This document shows positions 6,019-31,583 of a stretch of DNA of 64,000 nucleotides, in pieces. Source of the stretch: Citrus sinensis (taxonomy: Eukaryota > Streptophyta > Magnoliopsida > Sapindales > Rutaceae). The notes under the pieces are model-generated. The model made no database searches, had not been told where the DNA came from, and saw only the letters and a program-made list of their open reading frames with translations. The stretch covers positions 22,513,501 through 22,577,500 of the forward strand of contig NC_068559.1 in NCBI RefSeq assembly GCF_022201045.2, given 5' to 3'. The translations under genes and the position numbers were made by a program. How positions within the stretch are numbered: position 1 is the stretch's first letter; each line of letters starts with the position of its first letter.

Positions 6019-9000
6019 CTACGTTTCTGCTAGGCCACAAGAGGATCTACTCCAGACAAACTTATCAGTATTTATCGACTTGGTCAAAACATCTGCTAGG
6101 TTCTCTTTGGTATGGATTTTCTGCAAATCCACACTTCCATCTTCCACTACTTCACGAACGAAGTGATACTGAACTCCAATGTGCTTTGTCCTGGAATGAA
6201 AAGTTGGATTCCTTGCAATGTGCAAGGCACTCTGACTGTCACAAAACACAGGAATTTTCTATTGTTTGTGCCCGAGCTCCTCCAATAATCTTTGTATCCA
6301 GATAGCTTCCTTGCAAGCTTGTGTAGCTGCCATGTATTCTGCTTCTGTTGTAGATAAAGCCACAACGGCCTGCAGTTTCGAAACCCAGCTTATAGCTGCT
6401 CCCGCAAGTGTAAACACATAACCAGTAGTGGATTTCCTTTTATTAAGATCTCCTGCAAAATCTGAATCCACATAACCCCTGACAGTAAACTCTGATCCTC
6501 CATAACATAATGCAACATCTGAGGTTCCTCTGATGTATCTCAGAACCCTCTTCACAGCTATCCAATGCTCTCCACCATGATTCGCCATGTATCGACTGAC
6601 TGCTCCCATTGCTTGTGCAATGTCCGGTCTTGTACATATCATAGCGAACATTAAACTTCCCACTGCTGATGCATACGGTACTCGAGACATCTCCTTCCTC
6701 TCTGCTTCATTACTAGGACACATACTTGAGGATAATTTGAAATTAACATGAAGTGGGGTAGAAATTGACTTACAATCTTGCATGTTGAAGCGTCGCAAGA
6801 TTTTCTTCAAGTAATTCTTCTGTGAGAGCCAAATCTTCCTGTTATTTCTGTCTCGGTGAATTTGCATCCCTAGAATCTTGTTTGCTGGTCCCAAGTCCTT
6901 CATTTCAAACTCCCTAGCCAACTGTGCCTTCAATTCTTGGATTCAATCTTTGTTGGGACCTGCTACCAACATGTCATCCACATACAACAGCAAAATGATG
7001 AAATCATTATCTTCAAACCTCTTGTAGTATGCACAATGGTCTGAACTGAGTCTGTTGTATCCAAGGCTCATGATGAAGGAATCAAATCTCTTATACCAAC
7101 ACCTCGGCGCCTGTTTGAGACCATATAGAGATTTGTTCAACTTGCAAACCAAGTTATCTTTTCCTGTTTCTGCAAAACCTTCTGGTTGGAGCATATATAT
7201 TTCTTCTTCAAGTTCTCCATGAAGAAATGAAGTTTTCACATCTAACTGCTCTAGATGTAGGTCAAATGTGGCACACATTGCCAAGACTATTCTGACTGTT
7301 GTGAGTCGAACCACTAGTGAAAATATCTCGTTGAAGTCAATACCTTCTTTCTGAGCATATCCTTTCACCACCAATCTCGCACGATACCGCTCCACTTGGT
7401 CATTGCCATCACGTTTGATCTTGTAGACCCATTTGTTTCCAATGGCTTTTCTTCTGTGTGGTAGTGGTACAAGTTCCCATGTCTTGTTCTTGTGTAGAGC
7501 TTCAATTTCTTCCTGCATTGCTGTTATCCACAAGGCAACATCTGAGCTGTTTAAAGCTTCATGGAAAGTTGAAGGCTCTTCATCCTCTATTAGAAGACAG
7601 TATGCAACGTTGATCTCTGTGACATACTCCGAGTGCCACGCTGGCGGTCGTCTCTCACGAGTTGACCGACGAACTTCTGGAGCCTCAGACTCAACTGGTT
7701 CTTGTTCCTCGTGCTCTGGTGCTGCTTCAGAAGAATCTGAATCTTCTGGATTATTTTCGACATATACCGGCACAGTCTCTGACTTTTCTTTTACAGTGCC
7801 ATCATCTCCATCTTTTCTTTGCAATTGATCTTCTACAAAAAATAACATCTCTGCTGATGATAATCTTGTAGGTAGTGGGGTCCCACAGACGATACCCCTT
7901 TACTCTATCAGCATACCCCAAAAAAATACATCTTCTAGATTTTGGATCCAGCTTTGTTATTTCTTGGGCATTGTACATCACGTACACAGGACATCCAAAT
8001 GCATGTAGGTAGGAATAATCAATTGGCTTTCCAGTCCACATCTCCATCGCTGTCTTCAGCCCAATAGCTGTAGATGGCGATCGATTTACTATATAACAGG
8101 CAGTTTTGGCTGCTTCTGCCCAGAATAAATTGGGTAAACCAGCAGTCCTCAACATAGCTCTTATTCTTTCTGTAAGAGTTCTGTTCATCCGCTCCGCCAC
8201 TCCGTTTTGTTGAGGAGTGTATGCCACTGTGAACTGCCTTTGAATACCTTCTTGCTTACAAAAAGCAAAGAACTCGTCGTCTGTATACTCACCACCATTA
8301 TCCGTCCTCAAGAACTTGATCTTTTTACTAGATTCAAGTTCCACCCACGCTTTGTATTCTTTAAACACTAGAAATACATCTGACTTTTTCTTAATTAGAT
8401 ACACCAAACATCTTCTGGAATAATTATCAATGAAAGTCACCATGTACTTTGCACCTCCCATTGATATATCCGGTGATTCCCAGACATCAGAATGAATCAA
8501 GTCTAAAATGCATTTACTTCTAACAACAGATCTACTGAATTTTAATCTATGCTGCTTACTTGTAACACAATGCTTGCAAAATGGTAAACTTACCGATTTG
8601 AGTCCCGGAAGTAATTTTCGTTCAGAGAGAATCTTCAAACCTTGTTCTGACATGTGACCAAGTTTGAGATGCCACATCATCGTTGACTCTTCTCCATTTG
8701 ATGCGACACACGCATCAGCCTCCTATAGTGTTTCTTCTTTAAGCATGAATAGATTAGGACCAATTTTTTCTGCCTTCATTAATACAAGCGCGCCTTTAAC
8801 GATCTTCATAATTCCATTCTCCACATGAGTTTTGTACCCATGACTATCCATTTGTCCTAAAGACAATAAATTTTTCTTTAGGCCGTTGACATGTCGTACC
8901 TCCCCAATTGTGCGAATTGTACCATCAAACATTTTTATTTTGATAGTACCAATACCAGCGATCTCCAAGGCATGATCATCTCCCATATACACAGATCCTC

Positions 9001-9949
9001 CTGAGATAGGTTCATATGTGTGGAACCATTCTCTCTGATAGGTCATGTGCCAGGTATCTCCTGAGTCTATAAGCCAGACATCAGACAGTCGTTTTCTGCC
9101 TTCTGAAACAGTTGTTGCCTCGCTGTAAAGAATTTCGCCATCATCTGAGGTACTTGCTACACAACCCTGAGCATTTGATGACTCAGGTTCTTTGCCCTCT
9201 TTTCTCTTCTGGTTACTCCAACATTCTTTCTTGACGTGCCCTTTCTTGCCACATTTGTAGCATTTAACATTCTTCTTACTTCTGAATTTTGATCTACCTT
9301 GATTTTGATTCCCACTGGGGCCACGTTCCGTTGATCTCCCTCTCGTCACCGATAGCGCTTTTGCTTGCTGCGAACTTGCTTGTATGTTTTCCTTATTTTT
9401 CCGCCTGCTCTCCTCATTTAATACAGAGGCTGCAACATCATCGAAAACTAGACTCTCCACTGGATTGTTGTTCGTCAGGTTGATGATGAGTTGGTCATAC
9501 GAATCTGGTAGACTTTGAAGTAGAAGCTCTGCACGTTCATTTTCCTCTATATTATGACCCAACGTTGTGAGTTGTGAAAATAGAGTCTTCAATGTATTGA
9601 TGTGGTCGGTCATTATTGTAGATTCCGCCATTCGAAGAGTATAGAGTTTCCTCTTCAAGAAGATTTTGTTGTGTAGTGACTTGGCCTCGTACAATTTTGT
9701 GAGAGTATCTCATATTTCCTTCGCTGTATTTTTCTCTGCCACACTGGATAATACTCCGTCTGCAAGTGTCAAGTGTAGATCACAAATTGCGTTGCCGTCT
9801 ATCTCGTTCCACTTGTCATCAATTATCTCCATGGGCCTTTCTCCAATTGCTGCCAAGCAATTATTTTTTCTCAATACAGCTTTCATCTTCATTTTCCACA
9901 ACGAAAAATTATTTCCGTTAAATTTCTCAATTTCATACTTTGCCGCCAT
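6019..9949 (-). pseudogene. Copia-1 gag-pol polyprotein, broken
   Basis: This is a copia-type polyprotein with the usual order gag, zinc knuckle (CYKCGKKGHVKKEC), protease, GAG-pre-integrase, integrase, reverse transcriptase (YVDD) and RNase H. It starts at the MAAKYEIEKF methionine (9949). Compared with the intact Copia-2 frame it has stops near 9709 (Trp to TGA), 8723 (Gln to TAG), 6942 (Arg to TGA) and 6259 (Gln to TAG), plus a frameshift near 7846. The protease motif also reads DSGDTWH where Copia-2 has DSGATWH. With the LTRs nearly identical, the element may have been copied in trans or decayed quickly after insertion. Confidence 0.9.
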
Positions 9950-10326: not shown

Positions 10327-10353
10327 TGTTAGGAAATTGATGGGTGAAGCAGA
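10327..10353 (-). repeat. Copia-1 5' LTR, first piece
   Basis: These 27 bases match 5454-5480. The LTR is interrupted here by the gypsy element. The last five bases, GCAGA, are repeated at 22897-22901 as the gypsy target-site duplication. Confidence 0.9.
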
Positions 10354-11738
10354 TGTTGAGTATTAGAAAATGCATATTTATAAAGGAGAAAACCGTCATT
10401 TTACATTTTAAGTCTTACTAACAACCCTTACTTTTATATATTTAACCTTCTTGTGATTTAATTACATGTGTTTTATTTTAATTAAGTATTTTATGTATTT
10501 TAGGGGCATTATAGTCATTTCACAATAAAGGAGAGATCAGACGGCAAAACGGACATCACTTTTGAACTCAGGACGGTCAAAAACCTTAGGAGGAGCATAA
10601 AAGGAAAAATAGCACTATTCACATGTACGGTACTATTCACGTGTACGGTACTGTATACGTTACTGTTCACGACACTGTTCACATAGACGGATGATGACGT
10701 GGCATTGACCGATGATGTGGCATTGACTGATGAGGTGTCACGATCCTGTTGGACTAAAATTCTTATGTACTGTTGATGGTGACGTGGCAGCATATCAGTG
10801 GACGAAAAATCTCGCGTACGGTGCATGCATCACACAGGATTATTTTCAACCAAACCGCGTTACTGTTCATCCGGGTCAAACCGCGTTACTGTTCAAAGTC
10901 GGGTCAAACCGTGTTACTGTTCATCCGCGTGGTCAAACGTGGACTGTTGACTGATGACGTGGCGCAATCCTGAGCGTCCAAACTGTTTTTAATCCGATGG
11001 CCATGATTTACTCCATGTATCTATAAAAAGGGGGCCTCCCCCCCCTAATTTGATATCTCTGAATCCATTTTTGGGATCCATTTTCTGTAATTCCCTCTCC
11101 ATCTTGTATTTTCTTCGTATTTTAATAAATTCCTATTTTGCCCCTAGTTCAACTATGAGTGGCTAATTTTCTTTCAAGCTTGGGTTGAAGGTGAAGTCTC
11201 AACATGTGTCATGGGCTTAATTTGGTAAATTTATTTTCTCTTCCCCTCTAATTTTTGTGGATGTTTTGACTTCTCGTCGACAAATAATAATAGTCTTGTC
11301 TAGATACCGCCTTGGTTACACCGGCTCTCTAGTATAAGATTATTATTATTTGGCACGATAAGCCCTTAGCACCATATTGATTAGAGCGTGGTTCATGAGG
11401 TGTGGATTCCCCCCTCATGATTTAATTGGCATTAATACGGATTATTTAGCCCATGATGCATGTTGATACGGATCCAGATACCCAAGTATGTCATTTCAAT
11501 AGAATTATCTTCAATTTATTCTCGCCATTGCAATTCCAATTTTAGAATTTATTCTCGCCATTTTAATTTAAGTTTTAGCATATACCAAATCATTTCCACC
11601 ATAAATCCAACAACCCATTTACAAAATTAATTCTATACACAATTAAAATCCACCTCCTCGTGGGATCGACACTCGTCACCATAGATCTATACTACAATAG
11701 ATTCGTGCGCTTGCGAGTACATTAAAATTTGCACAACA
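10354..11738 (+). repeat. Gypsy 5' LTR (1385 bp)
   Basis: It begins TGTTGAGTATT and ends GCACAACA. U3 contains an array of GTACTATTCACGTGTACG-like units (about 10612-10690) and a second array built on AAACCGCGTTACTGTTCA (about 10850-10935). A TATA box lies at 11022 and possible AATAAA polyadenylation signals follow near 11123. Short frames inside the LTR recur in both copies and are not regarded as genes. Confidence 0.93.
11022..11028 (+). promoter_or_regulatory. TATA box of the gypsy 5' LTR
   Basis: TATAAAA sits in the LTR followed by a C/G-rich stretch. The same sequence is at 22180-22186 in the 3' LTR. It is the probable core promoter for the genomic transcript. Confidence 0.6.
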
Positions 11739-11744
11739 AGTTTT

Positions 11745-11762
11745 TGGCGCCGTTGCCGGGGA
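11745..11762 (+). other. Gypsy primer-binding site (tRNA-Asp)
   Basis: TGGCGCCGTTGCCGGGGA lies six bases after the LTR end. It is complementary to the 3' end of plant tRNA-Asp, the primer typical of Athila elements. Confidence 0.88.
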
Positions 11763-12091
11763 GGTAAGTAATTTTAATTCATAGAATTAATTTTTGTGAA
11801 TAATTTCTTTTATTTGTTTTCTTGTATTTTTTTTTATTATTAAAAAAAAAAGAAAAAAAAAGTGAATCTACATTTAAAGGTTAGTATTTCTTTTCTTTTT
11901 CTCTTCTTTAAAATTTTGTAATTTAATTTTCCATTTATTTTTCTTTGTAATTTTTTTTTTGTTTATCTTATTAATTTAATTTTTAGTTAATTTCTTTCAC
12001 GTATTTATTTTTGTGTATTTTTATAGAAAGGTTGTAATAGCGCAATAAGGTTAGTATCGTAATTTCTCCCTATTCTTTATTTTTATTTGTT
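11763..12091 (+). other. Gypsy leader
   Basis: This is an untranslated, T-rich leader between the primer site and gag. No gene is seen in it. Confidence 0.6.
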
Positions 12092-15000
12092 TTGTTCTCA
12101 TCTTTATTTTTTGTTTTGTTTGCATCTTTATTTTTATTTTATTTATTTTGCATGCATGGTCGTAGGTCATTATTACCTAATCTTGAACCTATAGACCTTG
12201 AATTAGAAAAAACACTTCGCACACACAAACACGTTAAAAATAAAATGGATTTACAAGCACCACAGGAGAGGCCATTTAAGGACTATTTTAGTCCCTTAGC
12301 TAATTTGAGCACGTCATGCATAAGATACCCAAATGTAGCTGCTAGGAGTTTTGAATTAAAACCTAGTGTGTTAAATTGTCTCCCTACATTTTATGGCCTA
12401 GAAAATGAGGATCCATATAATCATTTGAATGATTTTCATGCCATTTGTCAAACATTCAAATATGAGAATTTTTCAGATGATGACGTTAAACTTAGACTAT
12501 TCCCATTTTCTTTAAAAGATAGAGCTCGTTCATGGCTTAATACATTGCCTGCTAATAGCATTGCATCATGGGAACAAATGGTTACAAAATTTTTAAATAA
12601 ATATTTCCCAGTGCATAAAACCAATGCTATTCGCAGGGAAATCTCGGAGTTTACCCAGAAAGATGACGAGCAATTTTTCGAAACATGGGAGCGATTCAAT
12701 GGGCTACTCTTGAAGTGTCCACATCATGGGTACGAGAAATGGCACCAATGCCAATACTTTTTGGAGGGATTATTGCCGAATGTGCAAGAATGGCTAATGG
12801 CAACAAGTGGAGGAGAGCTAATGTCAAAAAGTGCATCAGAGATTTGGGAATTCTTCCAGCGACAAGCGGATAATTCCCAACAACGGAGTCGATCACTCAG
12901 GAATACTAGACGAATTAAGGGAGTAAATGAGGTTCAAATTGGCGAGTCAACTTCGGGAATCAAAGAAGTCAAGGAGATGGTTGAAGGTCTTGCTCGACAA
13001 ATAGCATCGTTATCGACTGCTAAATCAACAGAACCACATGACCATGACTCATACTCAGATCAAGCCAATGCCATAGGTGTAATGAGAAAGCCATCAAATT
13101 ACAACCCATACTCCAACACATATAACCCTGGATGGAGAGACCACCCCAATTTTTCATGGTCTCAAGGATTCCAACAGAATGGACCAACAGCTCCAGCTCC
13201 ACCAATTCCACAAAATCCTCAAGCCTCTCAGCCACCATTTAGACCATACAATCAGAACCAGAATTACTCTCAGCCCAGACCATGGGAGGATTCATTCCAG
13301 AATCTTAAGAATCTTACTCACTCCACGATTGAGCAACAGAACCGCACCATTGATGGACTACGAAATGAGTTGAGAGCAGGCTTCAACTCACAAGCTCAAT
13401 CAGTTTCAAGCCTCGAGAAGATGGTGGGACAACTTGCTTCTTCAGTTCAGACCTTGGCAATGACCGTTGAGAAAGGCAAGTTTCCAAGTCAACCAGTGCC
13501 TAATCCTAAAGGAGTACATGAAGCAAGTACCAGTTCACCACAGCAGCATGGAGAGGTCAAAGCAGTTATGACCTTGCGAAAAGGAAAAGAAGTCGACAAC
13601 AAAGTGGAGATGCCGGTAACCAAAGAAAATCAAATTGTACCTGTGAATGTTGAAGACTCATCACCGGAGGAGAAAGAAGAAACCAACCCACGAGAATACG
13701 TTCCGAAAGCTCCATTTCCTCAAAGGTTAGCGAAAGGAAAGAAGGGAAAATCCACAGGTGAGATTCTCGAAATCTTCAAACAGGTAAGTGTTAATATCCC
13801 TTTGCTTGATGCTATTAAACAAGTTCCATCTTATGCCAAGTTTCTTAAAGACCTTTGTACTAAAAAGAGAAATATGCATGTTCAAAAGAAGGCATTTTTA
13901 ACAGAAAACGTTAGTTCTATACTCCAACATAAAATTCCTTTAAAATGCAAAGACCCTGGCTCCCCCACTATCTCATGTAGTATAGGGAACCACACAATTG
14001 AGAATGCTTTGTTGGATTTAGGAGCTAGTGTAAATCTGTTGCCTTATTCAGTATTTGTGAAACTTGGATTGGGAGAATTACACCCAACTCCAGTGGTGTT
14101 ACAGCTTGCAGATCGGTCCACGAAAATACCTCGTGGTATTGTGGAGGACGTGCTTATCCAGGTAGACAAGTTTTATTTTCCTGTTGATTTCATTGTAATT
14201 GACACTCAACCAATACAGGATTCAAGGAAGCACATCCCCATTATTCTAGGCCGACCTTTCTTGGCAACTGCGGATGCTCACATTCAATGCAGGACTGGAA
14301 ATATGCAGTTGTCTTTCGGCAACATGACTATGGAGCTGAACATCTTCAACATTGCCAAACAACCTCACAGTGCAGATGATGGAATTGTTGATGTGGATTT
14401 AATTGAAGCATTAGTTGATGATACTTTTGTTTCAAACCTTAGTGATGATCCTTTACAAACATGTTTAACTCACTTTGGTTTGAATTTTGATATTGACAGA
14501 TCGGTCGATGAGGTCAACGCCCTGCTTGACTCCGCACCATCCTTGGACACTAATAAATGGAAATCAAGAGTTGAACAACTAGCACCATCAGAGAAGAAAC
14601 TCATCCCATCATCAGAATCACCACCGAAACTCGAGCTCAAACCATTGCCCAACACTTTGGAATATGCGTTTTTGGGAGAAGAAAGTACTCTACCGGTAAT
14701 CATCTCAGCATCCCTCAATGACGAACAAAAAGGTAAGTTGTTGGATGTTTTAAAAGATCACAAAGGAGCATTAGGATGGACCATAGCAGACATTAAGGGT
14801 ATAAATCCAGTAGACTGCATGCATTACATTCACCTCGATGAAAATGCTAAATCTACTAGGGAAATGCAACGTCGGTTAAATCCTAATATGAAAGAAGTTG
14901 TTAGAATTGAAGTCCTTAAGCTATTAGATGCAGGTATCATTTACCCAATTTCTGATAGTTCATGGGTCAGTCCTGTACAAGTTGTCCCCAAAAAGTCAGG

Positions 15001-17533
15001 AATCACAGTAGTTACGAATGCTGATAATGAATTGATACCCACTAGAGTAACTACAGGATGGCGTGTTTGCATTGATTATAGAAAGTTAAATTCTGTCACA
15101 CGTAAAGACCATTTTCCTTTACCATTTATTGATCAAATGCTTGATAGATTAGCAGGCCATGAATTTTATTGCTTTCTAGATGGCTACTCAGGATACAATC
15201 AGATTCCCATAGCACCAAAAGATCAAGAGAAAACTACTTTCACTTGCCCTTTTGGCACATTTGCATATAGGAGAATGCCATTTGGATTATGTAATGCACC
15301 TGCTACATTTCAACGATGCATGTTGAGCATTTTTTCTGATATGGTTGAACGATTCCTTGAAGTCTTTATGGATGATTTTTCTGTCTTTGGTGACTCGTTT
15401 GATCAATGTTTACATCATCTAACACTAGTCCTGCAGAGATGTGTCGAGAAGAACTTGGTCTTAAATTGGGAGAAATGCCATTTTATGGTAAAACAAGGTA
15501 TTGTTCTCGGTCACATCATTTCGAGCAAAGGTATTGAGGTTGACAAAGCCAAGGTGGATCTCATTTCTAATCTTCCTCCACCCAAAACAGTCAGAGAAGT
15601 AAGATCTTTCCTTGGGCATGCTGGTTTCTATAGACGTTTCATTAAAGATTTTAGCAAAGTTTCTAGACCCTTATGCAACTTACTTGCTAAGGATGTACCT
15701 TTTATCTTTAATGATTCATGTCTTATGGCGTTTGAAAAATTAAAGCATTTGTTGACATCATCACCCATCATTCAGTCCCCGAACTGGAGTTTACCATTTG
15801 AACTCATGTGTGATGCATCTGATTATGCAGTAGGAGCAGTATTAGGACAAAGAGTTGATCGAATTCCCCACGTTATTTACTATGCTAGTATGACATTGAA
15901 TGATGCACAGTTGAACTATTCAACTACTGAAAAAGAAATGCTAGCAGTAGTGTTTGCATTAGAAAAATTTCGATCTTATCTCATTGGTTGTAAAATAATT
16001 GTGTTCACAGATCATGCTGCTCTTAAATATCTTCTCACAAAGAAAGATGCAAAAGCTAGACTAATTCGTTGGGTGTTACTTTTGCAGGAATTTGACTTGG
16101 AATTCAAAGATAAGAAAGGGTCAGAAAATGTTGTGGCGGACCATCTCTCTCGTCTCCATTTTGACACAATAATAGAACAATTACCATTAAATGAGTCATT
16201 TCCAGATGAACAATTAATGAGTGTGGAAGTATTACCTTGGTATGCTGATATAGTTAATTATCTTGTTACAGGTAAACTTCCAGAGCATTGGACCAAGCAA
16301 GACAAGATCAAATTCTTTGCGGAAATAAAGAATTTCTTTTGGGATGACCCGTATTTGTTCAAGTATTGTGCAGACCAAATTGTTAGACGATGTGTCCCAG
16401 AAAATGAAATTCAGAATATCCTTTCATTCTGCCATGAACAAGCTTGTGGAGGCCATTTCAGCGCTAAGAAAACAGCGACTAAAGTTTTACAATGTGGTTT
16501 CTATTGGCCAACACTATTTCGAGACGCTTACACTTTTTGTTCTTCATGTGATAGGTGTCAACGAATGGGGAGCATTACACGAAGGAACATGATGCCACTA
16601 AATCCAATTTTAGTGGTTGAGATTTTTGACGTATGGGGTATCGACTTCATGGGACCCTTTCCCCCTTCTTTTGGCCATCAATACATATTGGTTGGTGTTG
16701 ACTACGTCTCAAAATGGGTAGAAGCAATTCCATGTAGAACCAATGATCACAAGGTGGTGATAGGATTTTTGAAAAACAACATTGTCTCACGCTTTGGATT
16801 CCCTCGAGCAATAATCAGTGATGGTAGTGCCCACTTTTGTAACAAAGCATTCAAAGCACTTTTGACAAAGTATTCAATCACACACAAAGTGGCAACCCCG
16901 TATCATCCGCAAACCAGTGGCCAAGTTGAGATATCCAATCGAGAAATAAAGCACATATTAGAAAAGACGGTGAGGCCAGACAGAAAAGATTGGTCATTAA
17001 GACTTGATGATGCATTATGGGCATATAGAACGGCTTTCAAGACCCCGATTGGGATGTCACCCTACAGGCTAGTGTATGGAAAAGCTTGCCACTTACCTGT
17101 GGAGCTCGAGCATCGTGCATATTGGGCCATCAAGAAATTCAATTTGGACATGCAGCAAGCCAGCTCAGAAAGAAGATTACAGCTGGCAGAACTTGAAGAA
17201 ATTCGCAATGACGCGTACGAAAATGCCAAGATTTACAAGCAACGAATGAAAGTCTTCCATGATAAGCAAATTATGAGAAAATTGTTCACTCCAGGTCAGA
17301 AAGTGCTTTTATTCAATTCTCGCTTGCACCTATTCCCAGGTAAGTTACGCTCTCGTTGGTCTGGTCCCTTTATTGTTCATACTGTTTTTCCACATGGGGC
17401 AATTGAAATTAAAGACCCAAAGAACGGTGTCACGTTTAAAGTTAATGGTCAAAGATTAAAGCCATATCTAGAGTACCAACCACATGAAGAAGACACCGAA
17501 ATAAATTTGAGTGACCCACCAAATTTGAATTGA
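12092..17533 (+). CDS. Athila-like gag-pol polyprotein, intact frame (1813 aa)
   Basis: One uninterrupted frame encodes the structural and enzymatic proteins needed for retrotransposition. A retrotransposon gag domain lies at about residues 95-240 ([15 protein letters not shown] motif). An aspartic protease has DLGAS at about 642 in place of the usual D-S/T-G. Reverse transcriptase carries FMDD near 1092-1095, followed by RNase H ([11 protein letters not shown]). Integrase has an HHCC zinc finger and a catalytic core (GIDFMGPF at about 1518, then ISDGSAHF and a [11 protein letters not shown] motif). A second methionine at 12152 (MHGRRSL) is the more likely start, because the 20 residues before it are hydrophobic leader sequence not expected in gag. 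No CCHC zinc knuckle is visible in gag. Domains were assigned by eye; the lack of stops suggests recent activity. Confidence 0.95.
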
Positions 17534-17664
17534 TTTTTTTTTTCTTCTTTTCGTTGATTTGATTTTTCTTTCTTTCTTTTTATTATTATTCTTTTGCTAA
17601 TTGAAATTGTTTTTGCATAAGTGTGTTTATTTTACCATTAAGTTTTCTCTTATCATTTTTAATC

Positions 17665-17898
17665 ATGAGTCTCATACTTAGACCGTTCCTCCTGAACATT
17701 CTTAAACCACTTCAACGTGTCAAAACTCATCTCAAAAGACAGATTCAATTTTGTAAAACACATCGCATTTGGGCTCTACAACCACCAGAGTTAGTAGCCT
17801 ATGTTGAGGGTTTAGAACACCAACTCAGAGACATTGAGAGAAGTGTTTACGACATCCAGTTGGAGCTTGAGGTAAATTCAATAAGAGGACGATTTTAA
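17665..17898 (+). CDS. Small membrane/coiled-coil protein of the gypsy element (unknown)
   Basis: A 77-codon frame (91 codons if started at 17623) lies 131 bp after pol. With the upstream start, the N-terminus is strongly hydrophobic (about 20 residues, LPLSFLLSFLIMSLIL) and could be a signal anchor. The remainder is basic and then heptad-like (VEGLEHQLRDIERSVYDIQLELEV), suggesting a short coiled coil. I do not recognise the family. Its position is where Athila elements carry an env-like gene, so a degenerate env remnant or a small accessory protein are both possible. Whether it is translated is unknown; it could also be chance. Confidence 0.4.
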   Translation: MSLILRPFLLNILKPLQRVKTHLKRQIQFCKTHRIWALQPPELVAYVEGLEHQLRDIERSVYDIQLELEVNSIRGRF

Positions 17899-18039
17899 TT
17901 TTCTTTGTGTGTTTTAATTTGTTTTTCTATTTGTGTGCTTTAGTTTGTTACCCCGGTGAAGTGGCGGATAACGGTACTCCGTGACAATCAAGTCGGTTAC
18001 TTCAGTTTCCCATAATAACTGATATTCTGAGGCGAAGGT

Positions 18040-18597
18040 ATGGACAGAAACGAGATTCTAGCGAAGCTTCACAAGCGATTCCCTTCACTTCCTCAGAATG
18101 CCCTCCTTACGATCTATAAAGCTCGGTCCGAACGCATGCGATTACTCATGAGGAATAACATACCTGCTGACATCCGTTGGTTAATCGAGGCTAAAGTACG
18201 ATCGGCAGGTGAGTTACCTCCAAAATTTATTGCATACATGCCTGGTTGTGGTAAAGGAAATTATGCAAGAAAACGACGAGCTCGAAGAATTTCTGTTGCT
18301 TGTCATAAGTGTGCCAGAATGAGTTGCAATAAAAACCCATGTTCTTTAGGAATGGTGTCTGATAATAGGGAAGATAAGATTCAATTCATTAGGGATGGCT
18401 TGAATAAGGAGTCATTGGATGATATCCTTTTGTCTCTTGAAACGCATCCCAGTGGATATGTGCAAGGAGCGATTCTCCAGTTATGGCCATTATTCCAGAA
18501 AGAGCATGCACGATATAGTCTCGGGAATCTGACTATAAACGACCCTGTTTGCCAGTTTATAAGAAAACTGGATAGGAAGCCTATCCTCGACCCATAG
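18040..18597 (+). CDS. Cysteine-rich basic protein resembling carlavirus nucleic-acid-binding proteins
   Basis: This 185-aa frame is inside the retrotransposon, 141 bp after the preceding small frame. The N-terminal 60 residues look helical. A glycine-containing turn then leads to a strongly basic stretch (NYARKRRARRI, about residues 76-86), a likely nuclear-localisation or nucleic-acid-binding segment. It is followed at once by a cysteine cluster C-x2-C-x4-C-x4-C (CHKCARMSCNKNPC). The basic segment directly before a zinc-finger-like cysteine cluster is the signature of the small cysteine-rich proteins of carlaviruses and relatives. Those bind nucleic acid and, in some cases, enter the nucleus and alter host transcription or suppress silencing. 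About 95 C-terminal residues are unlike anything I recognise. The resemblance is by pattern, not alignment; a gag-type zinc-binding protein is the alternative. The frame has no stops. Confidence 0.6.
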   Translation: MDRNEILAKLHKRFPSLPQNALLTIYKARSERMRLLMRNNIPADIRWLIEAKVRSAGELPPKFIAYMPGCGKGNYARKRRARRISVACHKCARMSCNKNPCSLGMVSDNREDKIQFIRDGLNKESLDDILLSLETHPSGYVQGAILQLWPLFQKEHARYSLGNLTINDPVCQFIRKLDRKPILDP

Positions 18598-18916
18598 AGG
18601 GCGTTCAAGCCGTTTCTGGACGTAAAACCAGAGGAAGATGTGAGCCACAGTCGCAACTACCTGTAAATATCCTTTTACTTTATTGTTATTTTATTTCACT
18701 ATTGTCTTATTGTTTGCATTATTGTCTTTAATAATTTTATTACTGTTTGCTTTTTCCTTTTTACTGTTTTCTTTTTGACTTGCGAGCACGTGCTTTACGC
18801 GTTATTTGACACTGACATATTACCTCATACACAACCATGACCCACTATCACCGAGACTCTTAAATGTGATTTCTTTTTTGTCAAGCACTCACAAATTGTT
18901 TTCGAGAAGTATCACA

Positions 18917-19585
18917 ATGGCAGCTACTCCCAATAGACAATTCAAGAACATTTGTGTGCTTTCTGGATTTACCTATGGCAAACATAAAGAGTTCGTTGAG
19001 GCAGCCATAGATCTTGGTCGAAGCATAGCAGCGAGAAAATTACACTTGGTGTATGGAGGAGGTAATCGAGGGTTATCAAAAATGGTCTCAGAAGCAGCTT
19101 TTATCAGAGGAAGTCAAGTGTTAGGCATCATCCCAAGAGTCCTAAAACCATTGGGCAGTTCGTCTGACTCATCAACTGGAGAAGAGTTAGTCGTCTCAGG
19201 TATGCAAGAAAGAATAACTGAAATGCTTAATTATGCTGATGCTTTTATTTTCCTTCCAGGAGATCTTGCAACACTAGAGGCACTTATGACACTAGCATCT
19301 TGGGCCCATCTACACATTCACCAGAAACCCATCGGTTTGTTAAATGTCAATAACTTTTATGATGGCTTTATCGCATTTCTTAACCATGCAATAAAAAACT
19401 ATTTCATTCCCTCTAATGCGAAAAAACTCTTTATTTGTGCTCACACTGCTAATGAGCTACTTGATATGTTACAAGCTTATCGACCGGAGCCAGACCCCTG
19501 GACCTTTGTGTTGGAGCGTCCAAATAATGATGGTAACAGTAGCCGCAGTAAGAAGTACAAATTAGATTTAACTCTCCGCCTGTAA
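18917..19585 (+). CDS. LOG-family phosphoribohydrolase homologue captured by the retrotransposon
   Basis: The 222-aa product is homologous over nearly its whole length to LONELY GUY, which releases active cytokinin bases from riboside monophosphates. Visible landmarks are FKNICVLSG near the N-terminus (LOG: nucleotide-binding CGSS region), VYGGGNRGL at 45-53, IIPRVL, MQERITEM with the conserved arginine at 99, DAFIFLPGDLATLEAL at 108-123, and IHQKPIGLLNVNNFYDG. The family motif PGGxGTxxE reads PGDLATLEA at 114-122: the second and fourth glycine positions and the final glutamate are changed. That glutamate is catalytic in characterised LOG enzymes, so activity may be lost or altered. Native plant LOG genes contain introns and this copy has none, pointing to capture through RNA. 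An in-frame ATG at 18806 would add 37 residues; 18917 gives a normal LOG length and start. Confidence 0.88.
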   Translation: MAATPNRQFKNICVLSGFTYGKHKEFVEAAIDLGRSIAARKLHLVYGGGNRGLSKMVSEAAFIRGSQVLGIIPRVLKPLGSSSDSSTGEELVVSGMQERITEMLNYADAFIFLPGDLATLEALMTLASWAHLHIHQKPIGLLNVNNFYDGFIAFLNHAIKNYFIPSNAKKLFICAHTANELLDMLQAYRPEPDPWTFVLERPNNDGNSSRSKKYKLDLTLRL

Positions 19586-21499
19586 ATATTTTCTTCTGTG
19601 TTGCACCACCCAGGTGATGTCTTCTAAACTCTACTTCTTTCATTTCAAACATTGAGGACAATGTTTCGTTCTGGTTGGGGGGAGGGAATAGTCGACAATT
19701 GTGGAATTTTGGTTAAGTTTTTACTAATTTTTTGTTGTAGAAACTAACTGTTGCTAACTTTTTGTGTTGAAGATGGCTGAATATGGAGTGTAGTGACTCT
19801 AGAAACGCATCTTCATCGTTTATAAAAAAAAAAAAAAAAATTCAGACATTTTCTTTTTCTTTATTATGTGTTTATGTTTATTTTTCTTCTTTTTAATTTC
19901 TCCTCTATAAATATACATTTTCCAACTTTTGAGTCGAAGATGGCTGAATATGGAGTGTAGTTCCTCTAGAAACGCATCTTCTTTAAAAAAAAAAAAAAAT
20001 CATTTTCGTTTTCTATCATTTTACGTGTAACTTTTCTAATTAGTTTTTATGCATCATTTTCACATTTCTGCATGCATATTTTCCTTTCATGTTTAGAATA
20101 GGTTGGGGGGTAGAATGTTGTTTAAAAAAAAAAATTTGTGTGATTTGTTTTAACATTGGGTGACATGATTAATTTTAAATTTTAGTATTTGTATTATCTT
20201 TGGTCTTAAGTGATGTTACATTATGTTTGCTACTCTACATGTTGATGTCGGAGACATATATGAGTTGCTTGAAGGAATGAACATGTCATAATAAGTACCA
20301 AGTGAGTTTTTGAGCCTATTATTTTTCTTGGAGAATAACCCTTTTGCCCACTCTTTATACAGCTTAGCAGTTTATTATTTTATACACGATCTCTAAATTA
20401 CTTTTGAGTTAACCCTAAAAAAAAAAAATTGTAAAATAAAAAAAAAAAGAAAAAAGAAAAAGAAAAAAGAGTGTGTTGCTACATTTGGAGGCCCATCTAA
20501 CTAGTAGATATGGAAGGTTATTCAGAGCCCTAAAAGACGATGGAAAGGCCATCTTTGATCCGTTTGAGCCTTTCTAGCCATCCCTTTTATTAAATATCCA
20601 TAGTTAACCCTTTTGAGCCTTTAAAAAAAAAAAAAAAACATTTTCTTTGTCAACTTATCATCTTGACCCACTCCGATTTGGAGTATTACCCGATGTCTTA
20701 TAAGTTCCATCACCTATTTATGTTTGAGAAAATGTAAATAATTATGTTGTTCAGTGAAGTTATGCCAAAAAAAAAAAAAAACAAAAACAAAAACAAAAGT
20801 TGTTGTTTCAAAAGAATAAAAATAGGTGAAATCCACCTTGCAACTTCCAAAAAAAAAAAAAAAAAAAAAAATTCTCTGCATTTTTCTCAAACATACACTT
20901 TGTTTTCCTTATTTTCCTTCTTTGTTAGCCATGTCCCTAGCCTACGTTTCATCCTAATAAAAGTCCTTCTTGATTTTAGGGAACTATAGTTTGAAGTAGA
21001 AGCTAGTTATATGGGCTAAAAAGATGTAGTGACGCATAATTAAAAAAAAAAAAAAAAGATAAATAAAGTGGGTTGACTAACATTTTATTTGACTTGAGAT
21101 CGTATTATTTCTAAGCTGAGGGCATATTTATTTCATCTTGGTGAGAGCATGTGATATCACTTCTTTATTATTTTCTCTCTCAATTACCATTCATTGGAGT
21201 GACTATTTTTATTGGGATTAATTTATTTGTGAGAGTGTCACTACTTCCAGTGAGATTTTGGGGTTTGACATGTCATTCTTGAGAGTAGCTAAAACAAAGT
21301 CTACTGGGCTAATTCATGTGGATGGTTGATGTGGGTGTGATGTTGCTTTAGACTGGAGATAATGCTTATACTTTTATTTGAGTGTTATCATTAATCTGAT
21401 GGAATAAATACGAGTGTTTCTATTAAAACAAAAAAAAAAAAAATTATTTTGAATTTGAATTTTGTTTTCGCTTTATTTGCTAGGGACTAGCAATAAGCT
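19586..21499 (+). other. Gypsy 3' non-coding region with A-tracts
   Basis: No convincing gene is present; the 81-codon frame at 20744 is low-complexity lysine/asparagine. The region carries about nine A-tracts of 10-20 bases, all on the sense strand (for example near 19826, 19985, 20122, 20621, 20766, 20850, 21042 and 21429). It also has an imperfect 50-bp repeat (19766-19816 and 19933-19982). Long 3' non-coding regions are usual in Athila elements. Confidence 0.7.
19766..19982 (+). repeat. Two copies of a 50-bp direct repeat
   Basis: Copies at 19766-19816 and 19933-19982 share GAAGATGGCTGAATATGGAG and the following CTCTAGAAACGCATCTTC. Each is followed by an A-tract, so the duplicated unit is about 167 bp including the spacer. 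Confidence 0.75.
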
Positions 21500-21511
21500 G
21501 GTTGGGGGGTG
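21500..21511 (+). other. Gypsy polypurine tract
   Basis: GGTTGGGGGGTG immediately precedes the 3' LTR and serves as the plus-strand primer in reverse transcription. Confidence 0.8.
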
Positions 21512-22896
21512 TGTTGAGTATTAGAAAATGCATATTTATAAAGGAGAAAACCGTCATTTTACATTTTAAGTCTTACTAACAACCCTTACTTTTATATATT
21601 TAACCTTCTTGTGATTTAATTACATGTGTTTTATTTTAATTAAGTATTTTATGTATTTTAGGGGCATTATAGTCATTTCACAATAAAGGAGAGATCAGAC
21701 GGCAAAACGGACATCACTTTTGAACTCAGGACGGTCAAAAACCTTAGGAGGAGCATAAAAGGAAAAATGGCACTATTCACATGTACGGTACTATTCACGT
21801 GTACGGTACTGTATACGTTACTGTTCACGACACTGTTCACATAGACGGATGATGACGTGGCATTGACCGATGATGTGGCATTGACTGATGAGGTGTCACG
21901 ATCCTGTTGGACTAAAATTCTTATGTACTGTTGATGGTGACGTGGCAGCATATCAGTGGACGAAAAATCTCGCGTACGGTGCATGCATCACACAGGATTA
22001 TTTTCAACCAAACCGCGTTACTGTTCATCCGGGTCAAACCGCGTTACTGTTCAAAGTCGGGTCAAACCGTGTTACTGTTCATCCGCGTGGTCAAACGTGG
22101 ACTGTTGACTGATGACGTGGCGCAATCCTGAGCGTCCAAACTGTTTTTAATCCGATGGCCATGATTTACTCCATGTATCTATAAAAAGGGGGCCTCCCCC
22201 CCCTAATTTGATATCTCTGAATCCATTTTTGGGATCCATTTTCTGTAATTCCCTCTCCATCTTGTATTTTCTTCGTATTTTAATAAATTCCTATTTTGCC
22301 CCTAGTTCAACTATGAGTGGCTAATTTTCTTTCAAGCTTGGATTGAAGGTGAAGTCTCAACATGTGTCATGGGCTTAATTTGGTAAATTTATTTTCTCTT
22401 CCCCTCTAATTTTTGTGGATGTTTTGACTTCTCGTCGACAAATAATAATAGTCTTGTCTAGATACCGCCTTGGTTACACCGGCTCTCTAGTATAAGGTTA
22501 TTATTATTTGGCACGATAAGCCCTTAGCACCATATTGATTAGAGCGTGGTTCATGAGGTGTGGATTCCCCCCTCATGATTTAATTGGCATTAATACGGAT
22601 TATTTAGCCCATGATGCATGTTGATACGGATCCAGATACCCAAGTATGTCATTTCAATAGAATTATCTTCAATTTATTCTCGCCATTGCAATTCCAATTT
22701 TAGAATTTATTCTCGCCATTTTAATTTAAGTTTTAGCATATACCAAATCATTTCCACCATAAATCCAACAACCCATTTACAAAATTAATTCTATACACAA
22801 TTAAAATCCACCTCCTCGTGGGATCGACACTCGTCACCATAGATCTATACTACAATAGATTCGTGCGCTTGCGAGTACATTAAAATTTGCACAACA
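21512..22896 (+). repeat. Gypsy 3' LTR (1385 bp)
   Basis: It is the same length as the 5' LTR with three differences by eye. It ends GCACAACA followed by the duplicated target GCAGA. Confidence 0.93.
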
Positions 22897-23363
22897 GCAG
22901 ACACGCAGCTAAAGTAAAATTGGTAGAAAAAATAAAGAACAAGCACAATAGAGGACATCAGAAATTACGTGGTTCGGCTTTTAGCCTACATCCACGGGTG
23001 AAGACAGAAGGAAATATTTTAACAGTGAAAAGGAGTTACAAGTATTGTAGTATTTTAGCTCACTACCCAAAACCCCAATACACCCAAACTCTCTCAATCA
23101 CTGTAACAAGAGCTTATAAATGCAAGCTCTTGAACTCTCTCTCAACTCCCTAAATTGCTCTCTGAATGGAATGATTAAGCTCTTCATTTGCACTTGTATT
23201 TATAGCAAAATGATGGCCAAGAAAGTCAAAGCCGTGGGTATCAAAATCTTCTTCAAAACCGTGTTCATCAAAGCTTGGTGGGTGAAAACCGTGTTCCATC
23301 TTCAAAGCCATGTGCCACCATTCTTTGTTTATGTAAAGCTTCTAGATGCAGCCGATATTGACA
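22897..23363 (-). repeat. Copia-1 5' LTR, second piece
   Basis: It continues the LTR begun at 10327 and matches 5476-5942. Bases 22897-22901 are the second copy of the gypsy target duplication. The flanking GTTGG at 23364-23368 completes the Copia-1 target-site duplication. Confidence 0.9.
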
Positions 23364-27396: not shown

Positions 27397-30300
27397 CTAC
27401 ATTTTTGCTAGGCCACAAGAGGATCTACTCCAGACAAACTTATCAGTATTTATCGGCTTGGTCAAAACATCTGCTAGGTTCTCCTTGGTATGGATTTTCT
27501 GTAAATCCACACTTCCGTCTTCCACTACTTCTCGAACGAAGTGATACTGAACCCCTATGTGCTTTGTCCTGGAATGAAAGGCTGGATTCTTTGCAATGTG
27601 CAAAGCACTCTGACTGTCACAATACACAGGAATTTTCTGTTGTTTGTGCCCGAGCTCCTCCAATAACCTTTGTATCCAAATAGCTTCCTTGCAAGATTGT
27701 GTAGCTGCCATGTATTCTGCTTCTGTTGTAGATAAAGCCACAACGGTCTGCAGTTTCGAAACCCAGCTTACGGCTGCTCCCGCAAGTGTAAACACATAAC
27801 CAGTAGTGGATTTCCTTTTATCAAGATCTCCAGCAAAATCTGAATCCACATAGCCTCTGACAGTAAACTCTGATCCTCCATAACATAATGCAACATTTGA
27901 GGTTCCTCTGATGTATCTCAGAATCCTCTTCACAGCTATCCAATGCTCTCCACCAGGATTCGCCATGTATCGACTGACTGCTCCCACTGCTTGTGCAATG
28001 TCCGGTCTAGTACATATCATAGCGAACATCAAATTTCCCACTGCTGATGCATACGGTACTCGAGACATCTCCTTCCTCTCTGCTTCATTGCTAGGACACA
28101 TACTTGAGGATAATTTGAAATTAACAGGAAGTGGGGTAGAAATTGACTTACAATCTTGCATGTTGAAGCGTCGCAAGATTTTCTTCAAGTAATTCTTCTG
28201 CGAAAGCCAAATCTTCTTGTTATTTCTGTCTCGGTGAATTTGCATCCCTAGAATCTTGTTTGCTGGTCCCAAGTCCTTCATTTCAAACTCCCTAGCCAAC
28301 TGTGCCTTCAATTCTTGGATTCGATCTTTGTTGGGACCTGCTACCAACATGTCATCCACATACAACAGTAAAATGATGAAATCATTATCTTCAAACCTCT
28401 TGTAATATGCACAATGGTCTGAACTGAGTCTGTTGTATCCAAGGCTCATAATGAATGAATCAAATCTCTTATACCAACACCTCGGTGCCTGTTTGAGACC
28501 GTATAGAGATTTGTTCAACCTGCAAACCAAGTTCTCATTTCCTATTTCTGCAAAACCTTCTGGTTGGAGCATATATATTTCTTCTTCAAGTTCTCCATGA
28601 AGAAATGCAGTTTTAACATCTAACTGCTCTAAATGTAGGTCAAATGTAGCACACATTGCCAAGACTATTCTGACTGTTGTGAGTCGAACCACTGGAGAAA
28701 ATATCTCGTTGAAGTCAATACCTTCTTTCTGAGCATATCCTTTCACCACCAATCTTGCACGATACCGCTCCACTTGGTCATTGCCATCACGCTTGATCTT
28801 ATAGACCCATTTGTTTCCAATGGCTTTTCTTCCACGTGGTAGTGGTACAAGTTCCCATGTCTTGTTCTTGTGTAGAGCTTCAATTTCTTCCTGCATTGCT
28901 GTCATCCACAAAGCAATATCTGAACTGTTTAAAGCTTCATGGAAAGTTGAAGGCTCTCCATCCTCTGTTAGAAGACAGTATGCAACGTTGATCTCTGTGA
29001 CATACTCCGAGTGCCACGTCGGCGGTCGTCTCTCACGAGTTGACCGACGAACTTCTGGAGCCTCAGACTCGACTGGTTCTTGTTCCTCTTGCTCTGGTGC
29101 TGCTTCAGAAGAATCTGAATCTTCTAGATTATTTTCCACATATACTGGCACAGTCTCTGACTTTTCTTTTGTAGTGCCATCATCCTCATCTCTCCTTTGC
29201 AGTTGATCTTCTACAAAGATAACATCTCTGCTGATGACGATCTTGTGGGCAGTGGGGTCCCACAGACGATACCCCTTTACTCCATCAGCATACCCCAAGA
29301 AGATACATCTTCTAGATTTTGGATCCAGCTTTGTTCTTTCTTGGGCATTGTACATCACGTACACAGGACATCCAAATGCATGTAGGTAGGAATAATCAGC
29401 TGGCTTTCCAGTCCACATCTCCATCGCTGTCTTCAGCCCAATAGCTGTAGATGGCGATCGATTTACTATATAACAGGCAGTTTTGGCTGCTTCTGCCCAG
29501 AATGAATTGGGTAGACCAGCAGTCCTCAACATAGCTCTTATTCTTTCTGTAAGAGTTCTGTTCATCCGCTCCGCCACTCCGTTTTGTTGAGGAGTGTATG
29601 CCACCGTGAACTGCCTCTGAATACCTTCTTGCTTACAGAAAGCAAGAAACTCACCGTCTGTATACTCTCCACCATTATCCGTCCTTAAGCACTTGATCTT
29701 TTTACCTGATTCAAGTTCCAACCGCGCTTTGTATTCTTTAAACACTAGAAATACATCTGACTTTTTCTTAATTGGATACACCCAACATCTTCTAGAATAA
29801 TCATCAATGAAAGTCACCATGTACTTTGCACCTCCCATGGATATATCCGGTGATTCCCAAACATCAGAATGAATCAAGTCTAGAATGCATTTACTTCTAA
29901 CAATAGATCTACTGAATTTTAATCTATGCTGCTTACTTGTAACACAATGCTCGCAAAATGGTAAACTTACCGATTTGAGCCCTGGAAGCAATTTTCGCTC
30001 AGAGAGAATCTTCAAACCTTGTTCCGACATGTGGCCAAGTTTGAGATGCCACATCATCGTTGACTCTTCTCCATTTGATGCGACACACGCATCAGCCTCC
30101 TGTAGCGTTTCTCCTTTAAGCATAAATAGATTAGCACCGATCTTTTCTGCCTTCATCAATACAAGCGCGCCTTTAACGATCTTCATAATTCCATTCTCCA
30201 CATGAGTTTTGTACCCATGACTATCCATTTGTCCCAAAGACAATAGATTTTTCTTCAGGCTGTTGACATGTCGTACCTCCCCAATTGTGCGAATTGTACC

Positions 30301-31326
30301 ATCAAACATTTTTATTTTGATAGTACCAATACCAGCGATCTCCAAGGCATGATCGTTACCCATATATACAGATCCTCCTAAAATAGGTTCATATGTGTGG
30401 AACCATTCTCTCCTAGAGGTCATGTGCCAGGTAGCTCCTGAGTCTATAAGCCAGACATCAGAAAGTCGTTTTCTGCCTTCTGAAACAGTTGTTGCCTCGC
30501 TGTAGAGTATTTCGCCATCATCCGAGGTACTTGCTACACAACCCTGAGCATTTGATGACTCAGGTTCTTTGCCCTCTCTTCTCTTCTGGTTACTCCAACA
30601 CTCTTTCTTGACGTGCCCTTTCTTGCCACAGTTGTAGCATTTAACATTCTTCTTACTTCTGGATTTTGATCTACCATGATTTTGACTCCCACTGGGGCCA
30701 CGTTCCGTTGATCTCCCTCTCGTCACTGATAGCGCCTCCGCTTGCTGCGAACTTGCTTGTCTGTTTTCTTTATTTTTCCGCCTGCTCTCCTCATTTAATA
30801 CAGAGGCTGCAACATCGTCGAAAACTAGACCCTCCACTGGATTGTTGTTCGTCAGGTTGATGATGAGTTGATCATACGAATCTGGTAGACTTTGAAGTAG
30901 AAGCTTTGCACGTTCATTTTCCTCTATATTATGACCCAACGTTGTGAGTTGTGAAAATAGAGTCTTCAAGGTGTTGATGTGGTCGGTCACCATTGTAGAT
31001 TCCGCCATTCGAAGAGTATAGAGTTTTCTCTTCAAGAAGATTTTGTTGTGTAGTGACTTGGCCTCGTACAATTTTGTGAGAGTATCCCAAATTTCCTTCG
31101 CTGTGTTTTTCTCTGCCACACTGGATAATACTCCGTCTGCAAGTGCCAAGTGTAGATCAGAAATGGTGTTGCCGTCTACCTCGTTCCACTTGTCATCAGT
31201 TATCTCCATGGGCCTTTCTCCAATTGCTGCCAAGCAATTATTTTTCCTCAATACAGCTTTCATCTTCATTTTCCACAACGAAAAATTATTTCCGTTAAAT
31301 TTCTCAATTTCATACTTTGCCGCCAT
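27397..31326 (-). CDS. Copia gag-pol polyprotein, intact (about 1309 aa)
   Basis: The polyprotein supplies capsid, protease, integrase, reverse transcriptase and RNase H for a Ty1/copia element of the TNT1-like type. In order: a gag region beginning MAAKYEIEKFNGNNF, a zinc knuckle CYNCGKKGHVKKEC, protease WLIDSGATWHMT, a GAG-pre-integrase segment (MWHLKLGHMS), an integrase core (IHSDVWES, RTDNGGEY, QQNGVAERMN), reverse transcriptase (NKWVYKIKRDG, LLLYVDDMLVAG) and RNase H (STTEAEYMAA, ending [12 protein letters not shown]). The methionine at 31326 matches the conserved start; an in-frame ATG seven codons upstream (31347) is possible. There are no stops or frameshifts, unlike its broken relative at 6019-9949. 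Confidence 0.95.
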   Translation of the reverse strand: MAAKYEIEKFNGNNFSLWKMKMKAVLRKNNCLAAIGERPMEITDDKWNEVDGNTISDLHLALADGVLSSVAEKNTAKEIWDTLTKLYEAKSLHNKIFLKRKLYTLRMAESTMVTDHINTLKTLFSQLTTLGHNIEENERAKLLLQSLPDSYDQLIINLTNNNPVEGLVFDDVAASVLNEESRRKNKENRQASSQQAEALSVTRGRSTERGPSGSQNHGRSKSRSKKNVKCYNCGKKGHVKKECWSNQKRREGKEPESSNAQGCVASTSDDGEILYSEATTVSEGRKRLSDVWLIDSGATWHMTSRREWFHTYEPILGGSVYMGNDHALEIAGIGTIKIKMFDGTIRTIGEVRHVNSLKKNLLSLGQMDSHGYKTHVENGIMKIVKGALVLMKAEKIGANLFMLKGETLQEADACVASNGEESTMMWHLKLGHMSEQGLKILSERKLLPGLKSVSLPFCEHCVTSKQHRLKFSRSIVRSKCILDLIHSDVWESPDISMGGAKYMVTFIDDYSRRCWVYPIKKKSDVFLVFKEYKARLELESGKKIKCLRTDNGGEYTDGEFLAFCKQEGIQRQFTVAYTPQQNGVAERMNRTLTERIRAMLRTAGLPNSFWAEAAKTACYIVNRSPSTAIGLKTAMEMWTGKPADYSYLHAFGCPVYVMYNAQERTKLDPKSRRCIFLGYADGVKGYRLWDPTAHKIVISRDVIFVEDQLQRRDEDDGTTKEKSETVPVYVENNLEDSDSSEAAPEQEEQEPVESEAPEVRRSTRERRPPTWHSEYVTEINVAYCLLTEDGEPSTFHEALNSSDIALWMTAMQEEIEALHKNKTWELVPLPRGRKAIGNKWVYKIKRDGNDQVERYRARLVVKGYAQKEGIDFNEIFSPVVRLTTVRIVLAMCATFDLHLEQLDVKTAFLHGELEEEIYMLQPEGFAEIGNENLVCRLNKSLYGLKQAPRCWYKRFDSFIMSLGYNRLSSDHCAYYKRFEDNDFIILLLYVDDMLVAGPNKDRIQELKAQLAREFEMKDLGPANKILGMQIHRDRNNKKIWLSQKNYLKKILRRFNMQDCKSISTPLPVNFKLSSSMCPSNEAERKEMSRVPYASAVGNLMFAMICTRPDIAQAVGAVSRYMANPGGEHWIAVKRILRYIRGTSNVALCYGGSEFTVRGYVDSDFAGDLDKRKSTTGYVFTLAGAAVSWVSKLQTVVALSTTEAEYMAATQSCKEAIWIQRLLEELGHKQQKIPVYCDSQSALHIAKNPAFHSRTKHIGVQYHFVREVVEDGSVDLQKIHTKENLADVLTKPINTDKFVWSRSSCGLAKM

Positions 31327-31583
31327 TTTTGTTGATAAATACTGCACACAAGCAAGTATACCACCTTGAATAGTTGTGAGTATGTGTGAGAATGCACACC
31401 AGGAAAGTTCCCAGGAAAGACTGGAGGGGTCACAATGGTCCCACTTAAAACCCAGACTCCTTAAGCTCTTATCGCCTTTGTGACAGAACTTTCCTAGACA
31501 TGTACAAAAACCACACAGTTGTTTTACTCACACCACTATTCCCTGCTTTGCACCGTAAAATTTTTGGATCGTTCCCACCGTTT

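Follow-up and report, generated by a model that had tools for sequence, protein, structure and literature searches.

Does a plant retrotransposon that carries a hormone-enzyme gene still make the enzyme? The question is raised by a 64,000-nucleotide stretch of the Citrus sinensis genome (hereafter the window, to which all coordinates refer), in which an earlier note, made from the letters alone, had described a gene for the cytokinin-activating enzyme LONELY GUY (LOG) inside an Athila-type LTR retrotransposon.

A LOG-like frame in a young Ty3/gypsy element

The frame lies in a young, intact Ty3/gypsy LTR element that occupies positions 10354-22896. Its LTRs, delimited by blastn between the two LTR regions, are 1385 bp each (10354-11738 for the 5' LTR, which reads TGTTG...CAACA, and 21512-22896 for the 3' LTR, both on the plus strand); they differ by 3 mismatches and no gaps over 1385 bp, and the target-site duplication (TSD) GCAGA can be read in the sequence on both the left (10349-10353) and the right (22897-22901). 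The distance between the two LTRs is 0.0022, which at substitution rates of 1.3e-8 to 2e-9 per site per year places the insertion at approximately 0.08-0.54 million years ago. Also read from the sequence are a primer-binding site, TGGCGCCGTTGCCGGGGA (11745-11762, plus strand), which we take to be of the tRNA-Asp type, and a polypurine-like tract, TTGGGGGGTG (21502-21511, plus strand), which precedes the 3' LTR. The gag-pol ORF (12092-17533, plus strand) is a single uninterrupted frame that the ORF listing opens at a TTG, and Pfam finds in it gag, protease, RT, RNase H and integrase domains. A small ORF with a hydrophobic N-terminus (17623-17898, plus strand; 91 aa from a GTG in the ORF list) sits between pol and an ORF resembling viral nucleic-acid-binding proteins (NABPs), and is also present in copy L001 (77 aa from an ATG). 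In the noncoding region 5' of the 3' LTR are two 73-nt repeats (19760-19832 and 19927-19999) that are 85% alike, each with GAAGATG...CATCTTC arms followed by an A-tract.

The LOG-bearing element likely belongs to the Athila clade, since it is without an additional RNase H (aRH) and has forward extra ORFs at its 3' side; the gag-PR-RT-RH-INT order and the LTRs with a 5-bp TSD are further Athila traits. The aRH is the mark of Tat (PMC6317226), and the absence of any aRH-type family from the Pfam matches of gag-pol is consistent with Athila rather than Tat. No match to the Athila ORF-1 family PF03078 was found in the four element ORFs scanned with Pfam, a family present in 16% of Athila elements and so rare even within the clade (PMC6317226).

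A second, broken element (6259-9694, minus strand) adjoins the Gypsy element and was assigned by eye to the copia type; its zinc-knuckle and integrase-like ORFs are spread over several frames. A Ty1/copia gag-pol with an open frame of 1316 aa lies at 27397-31347 on the minus strand. Two LRR receptor-kinase ORFs of 909 aa each and the same domain layout (33180-35909 and 48036-50765, minus strand), together with more LRR or LRR-kinase pieces (2283-3674, 58229-58966 and 60106-61188), point to a receptor-kinase cluster.

The LOG-like ORF itself (18917-19585, plus strand; 222 aa with a TAA stop), identified from the ORF list and from profile and homology searches, is located between pol and the 3' LTR. 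It matches Pfam PF03641 (E 1.5e-28), TIGR00730 (E 5.9e-38) and Arabidopsis LOG3 (2a33; E 5.5e-45), with the LOG homology spanning residues 7-190, and the LDcluster4/SLOG profile matches as well (E 6e-9). The NCBIfam equivalog NF058542 gives 90.8 bits, below its 300-bit cut-off, a weak result in that no plant LOG was scored alongside. These searches place the frame in the LOG family and bear out the earlier description of a LOG homologue within an element with intact LTRs and a TSD. The start had been set at 18806, upstream of the ATG at 18917. The extension upstream of this ATG varies between copies (with open frames of 237 to 334 aa) and the ATG itself opens the LOG-like protein in every sublineage that we aligned, which makes 18917 the likely start.

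The frame had also been said to lack introns. Three host LOG genes (L051, L067 and L068) were seen in the same genome, in addition to a relative, L052, whose frame is broken. The three match AtLOG3 as separate exon pieces, one of the breaks falling within the PGG motif (exon borders being those read from tblastn, not from transcripts), and the element frame runs through every one of these break positions. The earlier claim is thus correct, and the continuity of the frame across the host exon breaks argues for capture from spliced RNA.

Copies, sublineages and selection

The genome searched comprises 299.7 Mb in 11 contigs. All 150 of the own-genome matches that were scored, which are the best 150 of 2108 first-look candidates, are 97-100% identical to the frame, and 148 of them are stop-free; being the best-scoring candidates, they are biased towards intact copies and overstate integrity. 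The frame is therefore present in many copies, and a single-copy accident is ruled out by them. The LOG profile matches and the 148 stop-free copies likewise rule out a chance ORF. Searches with P0095 and P0100 recovered other sublineages, many copies of which have stops. The copy comparison was made with the window copy, L001-L050 and L084-L090, which amount to 58 entries from 57 loci (L003 being the window's own place) and to 42 distinct sequences; stops occur in 11 of the 58 entries, and stop codons were skipped.

The LOG-like ORF falls into four sublineages (A-D). Between sublineages, ten pairs gave dN/dS ratios of 0.18-0.25 at dS 0.51-0.90, with 95% upper bounds of at most 0.39, so that the ratio below 1 suggested as a sign of a selected role is indeed found. 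For five pairs within sublineages the ratios were 0.44-0.89; the upper bound stayed below 1 in two of these pairs (0.82 and 0.78), which indicates that decay there is not purely neutral. The pattern is that of a frame that is selected during transposition and decays after insertion. The higher ratios within sublineages, and the older copies with stops, are what might be cited for a frame carried along as a passenger without function. The ratios between sublineages disfavour a neutral passenger, and the conservation of the pocket and tail described below speaks against it too; we find this explanation hardly credible. At rates of 6.5e-9 to 1.3e-8, the deepest sublineage splits would date back some tens of million years. 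For one pair, L023 and L033, dS is 0.51 in the LOG-like ORF and 0.14 in the NABP-like ORF, a discrepancy that suggests that the sublineages are partly mosaic, with the two ORFs having partly different histories as a result of recombination between elements.

The closest database proteins are 96-98% identical to the frame and are named for Citrus x changshan-huyou. Among the best 120 of 597 LOG matches, all with Citrus names or unnamed, no LOG-like element from outside Citrus was found. Many Citrus UniRef entries called 'cytokinin riboside 5'-monophosphate phosphoribohydrolase' are copies of the element ORF without the catalytic motif, and one UniRef cluster of this ORF (P0003) has 705 members; such naming can mislead counts of LOG genes.

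The active site and the C-terminal tail

In the LOG protein of C. glutamicum, the numbering of which coincides by chance with that of the element protein, the catalytic residues are Arg99 and Glu122, the phosphate site is formed by Gly116, Ala117, Gly118 and Thr119, the adenine site by Met96, Lys100 and Glu121, and the prenyl site by Met96, His97, Lys100, Glu125 and Trp129; alanine at crucial residues nearly abolished activity, with the exception of S19A (PMC4979012). Alignment of the copies, read with these residue roles (PMC4979012), shows that the LOG catalytic motif PGGxGTxxE is replaced in the element by PGDLATLEA (19256-19282, plus strand). The intact motif was found in none of the 42 distinct genomic copies and in none of the 120 database proteins. 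Position 122 is Ala in 37 of the 42 copies and Val, Thr or Ser in the other five, but never Glu. Asp stands in place of Gly116 at the phosphate site, Ile in place of Lys100, Gln in place of His97 and Thr in place of Glu125, each in 42/42, and position 118 is Ala in 41. Other residues are kept, namely Met96 and Thr119 (42 copies each), Glu121 (41), the catalytic Arg99 (39) and Trp129 (37). When the genome was scanned with a narrow DNA pattern of the intact motif, the one match lay in the host gene L067; the host LOG genes mostly escape such a pattern, their motif being interrupted by an intron. All four sublineages have the pocket replacements fixed, a state that simple decay would not leave, and this implies that the pocket was rebuilt before the sublineages split and was then kept.

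The LOG encoded by the frame could, in principle, release active cytokinin and so raise meristem activity where new insertions reach the germ line. The homology over residues 7-190, the retention of Arg99, Thr119 and Glu121 and the purifying selection on the frame are all in keeping with an active enzyme. Set against them are the loss of Glu122 and the replacement of Gly116, His97, Lys100 and Glu125 in every distinct copy, and the near-abolition of bacterial LOG activity by alanine at crucial residues other than S19 (PMC4979012). As PGGxGTxxE and Glu122 are missing from all 42 copies, production of active cytokinin by the known mechanism appears unlikely, and the replacements remove an active LOG of that kind from the candidates. 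Judged by its residues, the element protein is very probably not a cytokinin-releasing LOG, an active enzyme is a very unlikely account of the frame, and the description of its product as a cytokinin-activating enzyme lacks support.

Most copies retain Arg99, Thr119, Glu121, Met96 and Trp129, so that the protein might act on another nucleotide. Bacterial SLOG-domain proteins bind immune nucleotide signals, and by analogy the rebuilt pocket might bind a different nucleotide without cleaving it, an immune nucleotide signal for example, the protein serving as a sponge or sensor. The replaced pocket residues are themselves (nearly) invariant, as expected for a new ligand, and the LDcluster4/SLOG profile match fits this idea; Asp at position 116, however, puts a negative charge at the former phosphate position, and we regard a sponge or sensor as improbable. 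The changes might alternatively make the protein a dominant-negative subunit: host LOGs have their active sites where the two subunits of the dimer meet, and pairing with them would lower cytokinin. The prenyl site seen in LOG structures indeed takes Glu125 and Trp129 from the neighbouring subunit (PMC4979012), and the element protein has Thr for the former in 42/42 copies and keeps the latter in 37/42. But an identity of only about 44% to AtLOG3 (copy L059) makes pairing with a host LOG doubtful, and a poisoning role leaves the conserved tail unexplained, so that we consider this possibility quite improbable. The AlphaFold model of the LOG-like protein (pLDDT 38) is too poor for a reading of either pocket or dimer.

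The tail in question ends in LDLTLRL (19562-19582, plus strand), an EAR-like LxLxLxL motif that emerged from the copy comparison. The final seven residues contain LxLxL in 41 of the 42 distinct copies (15/15 in sublineage A, 10/11 in B, 9/9 in C and 7/7 in D) and the motif is C-terminal in 85 of the 120 database proteins, several of the remainder stopping early in other sequence; it was not found in the two host LOG tails that were readable (L067 and L051). In sublineage C, the basic KKYK/KKCK preceding the tail reads KKCD/KKYD instead. When eight pairs from different sublineages were compared, nonsynonymous changes in the 11-codon tail numbered 0-3 and synonymous ones 2-8, and dN in the 21-codon linker that precedes the tail is 0.23-0.47; with a dN of 0-0.13, compared to 0.10-0.18 for the body, the tail shows no clear excess of constraint over the body. 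A Fisher test of tail versus linker gave p 0.014, for two pairs picked after seeing the data. The chance of an LxLxL in the tail, given its leucine content, is about 0.5-0.6% for a motif that was noticed only after alignment, and we treat the EAR reading, which is post hoc, as a lead. Of the EAR consensus forms, LxLxL is the commoner and often occupies the C-terminus (PMC9956375), and HaRxL21 binds TOPLESS through a C-terminal LMLTL, whereas ten other LxLxL-bearing effectors did not bind TOPLESS (PMC7446885). An interaction of the tail with TOPLESS through an EAR motif is accordingly put forward tentatively, as something we would sooner expect to fail than to hold.

The explanation that we favour, and think reasonably probable, is that an old, intron-free LOG capture has become an accessory protein that is no longer catalytic and that perhaps engages TOPLESS corepressors. 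It builds on what is directly seen in the loci examined: the homology, the intron-free capture, the copy number, the selection, the fixed active-site changes, the conserved tail and the constant NABP neighbour. From the conservation of the frame, which these copies document, we infer its function as follows. Long ago, a Citrus Ty3/gypsy lineage, probably of the Athila clade, would have taken up the spliced message of a host LOG gene, the copy coming to lie 3' of the virus-like NABP ORF. Before the present sublineages split, the LOG catalytic centre would have been lost, the nucleotide/prenyl pocket rebuilt and the EAR-like C-terminal tail gained, and since then purifying selection would have kept the captured protein as an accessory of the element. 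Such a protein would release no active cytokinin; it would instead be a LOG-fold scaffold, probably dimeric and perhaps binding a different nucleotide, whose tail may recruit or titrate TOPLESS-type corepressors and thereby shift host transcription (of defence, hormone or silencing genes) in favour of the element.

The NABP-like neighbour and comparison with known systems

The ORF just upstream (18040-18597, plus strand) encodes 185 aa with a basic stretch followed by CxxCx4Cx4C, and is related, by Pfam and family alignment, to flexivirus nucleic-acid-binding proteins. Of 34 aligned relatives, 27 match Carla_C4 and 26 match Viral_NABP at E<=0.01 (best 2.6e-8). The window copy alone scores under the Pfam cut-offs (16.3 bits vs 20.9), and some relatives pass theirs (P0138, for example, with 33.8 bits vs 23). 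A profile search of the PDB with the NABP alignment gave a chance-level match only (E 0.2), the AlphaFold model (pLDDT 58) was too poor for a fold search, and scans of viral contigs with the NABP and with the LOG found no relative. The NABP-like ORF is present just upstream of the LOG-like ORF in 50/50 distinct loci (the window, alias L003, and the others of L001-L050), although broken or partial in L026, L027 and L030, and its dN/dS is 0.25 and 0.27 in two comparisons of the window copy with members of other sublineages. The gene models P0049, P0071 and P0080 fuse NABP and LOG. Named relatives of the NABP come from Citrus, Xanthoceras, Acer and Populus, and this reach, wider than that of the LOG-like ORF among the best 120 matches of each search, indicates that the NABP-like ORF is probably the older of the two. 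Despite the report of LOG domains in P. trichocarpa elements (PMC9289625), none of the best 120 of 401 matches to the Populus-like NABP had a LOG domain.

A nucleotide-conserved island, defined by identity between sublineages, extends across the NABP stop codon (18534-18655, plus strand). Here 60-base windows starting at 18534-18594 are 92-97% identical between sublineages, compared to 57-83% across the remaining NABP region, and dS in the last 25 NABP codons is 0.12-0.28, approximately 4-10 times lower than the 1.04-1.27 found elsewhere in the ORF. The end of the frame was found in 47 of 51 entries, each of the 47 with TAG as its stop; the codons after the stop read RAFKPFLDVKPEEDVSH..., and the stretch runs on stop-free in P0199 and P0182. 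A readthrough or RNA signal is possible, and RNA folding of the island was not significant (z -1.5).

Some cysteine-rich NABPs of flexiviruses are known to suppress RNA silencing (PMC12172455), and the adjoining NABP-like protein may similarly bind nucleic acid or dampen RNA silencing. One could go further and suppose that the element lineage has a pair of genes for managing its host, in which a flexivirus-like NABP is joined by a non-catalytic, TOPLESS-engaging LOG with a new pocket ligand; we think this extension unlikely as a whole. Were it true, the LOG-like protein would serve a mobile element much as an effector does, having been built from a hormone enzyme and maintained over tens of millions of years. 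The favoured explanation, if true, would mean that a captured enzyme can give up its enzyme role inside a retrotransposon, the catalytic site being lost from a frame that is still selected and that forms an abundant family.

The presence of a LOG gene in such an element had been thought to be new. Steinbauerova 2011 reportedly described LOGL4-like ORFs in two Athila-like elements. YgdH/LOG domains in Gypsy consensuses of C. sinensis, C. clementina and P. trichocarpa have already been published, with citation of Steinbauerova 2011 (PMC9289625), and novelty in this respect falls away. The window element shares with those elements the superfamily, the captured domain and, for the Citrus ones, the host genus, and is very probably a member of the LOG-bearing Gypsy group reported there. 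The passages of that account on these domains do not mention loss of the catalytic motif, an EAR-like tail, an NABP-like neighbour or selection (PMC9289625); a search of the literature, weak in that subscription papers lay mostly outside it, turned up no description of the lost active site, the C-terminal tail or the adjoining NABP either. Whether extra ORFs in plant LTR elements serve any function has been left open (PMC7264820, PMC6317226), and the LOG-like ORF makes the question testable, through enzyme activity and TOPLESS binding.

Compared with plant LOGs such as AtLOG3 (At2g37210) and AtLOG8 (At5g11950), the element protein shares the LOG sequence of residues 7-190 and Arg99, but is without PGGxGTxxE and the catalytic Glu, has an altered prenyl site and an added tail, and is encoded without introns. 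The neighbouring ORF resembles the NABPs of carlaviruses and other flexiviruses (PF01623, PF05515) in its basic stretch followed by clustered Cys, and differs from them in being retrotransposon-encoded and 185 aa long, with the Pfam models covering mainly residues 36-123. To EAR proteins and HaRxL21 (PMC7446885, PMC9956375), the LOG-like protein is alike in sequence at the extreme C-terminus, where it has LxLxL, and different in its unrelated body. Finally, the m6A demethylase (2-ODD/AlkB-type) domain of a Phalaenopsis Gypsy lineage is also a host-type enzyme domain that became fixed in such elements, but whereas that domain is called functional in the title of the report (PMC9289625), in the Citrus element the enzyme motif is gone.
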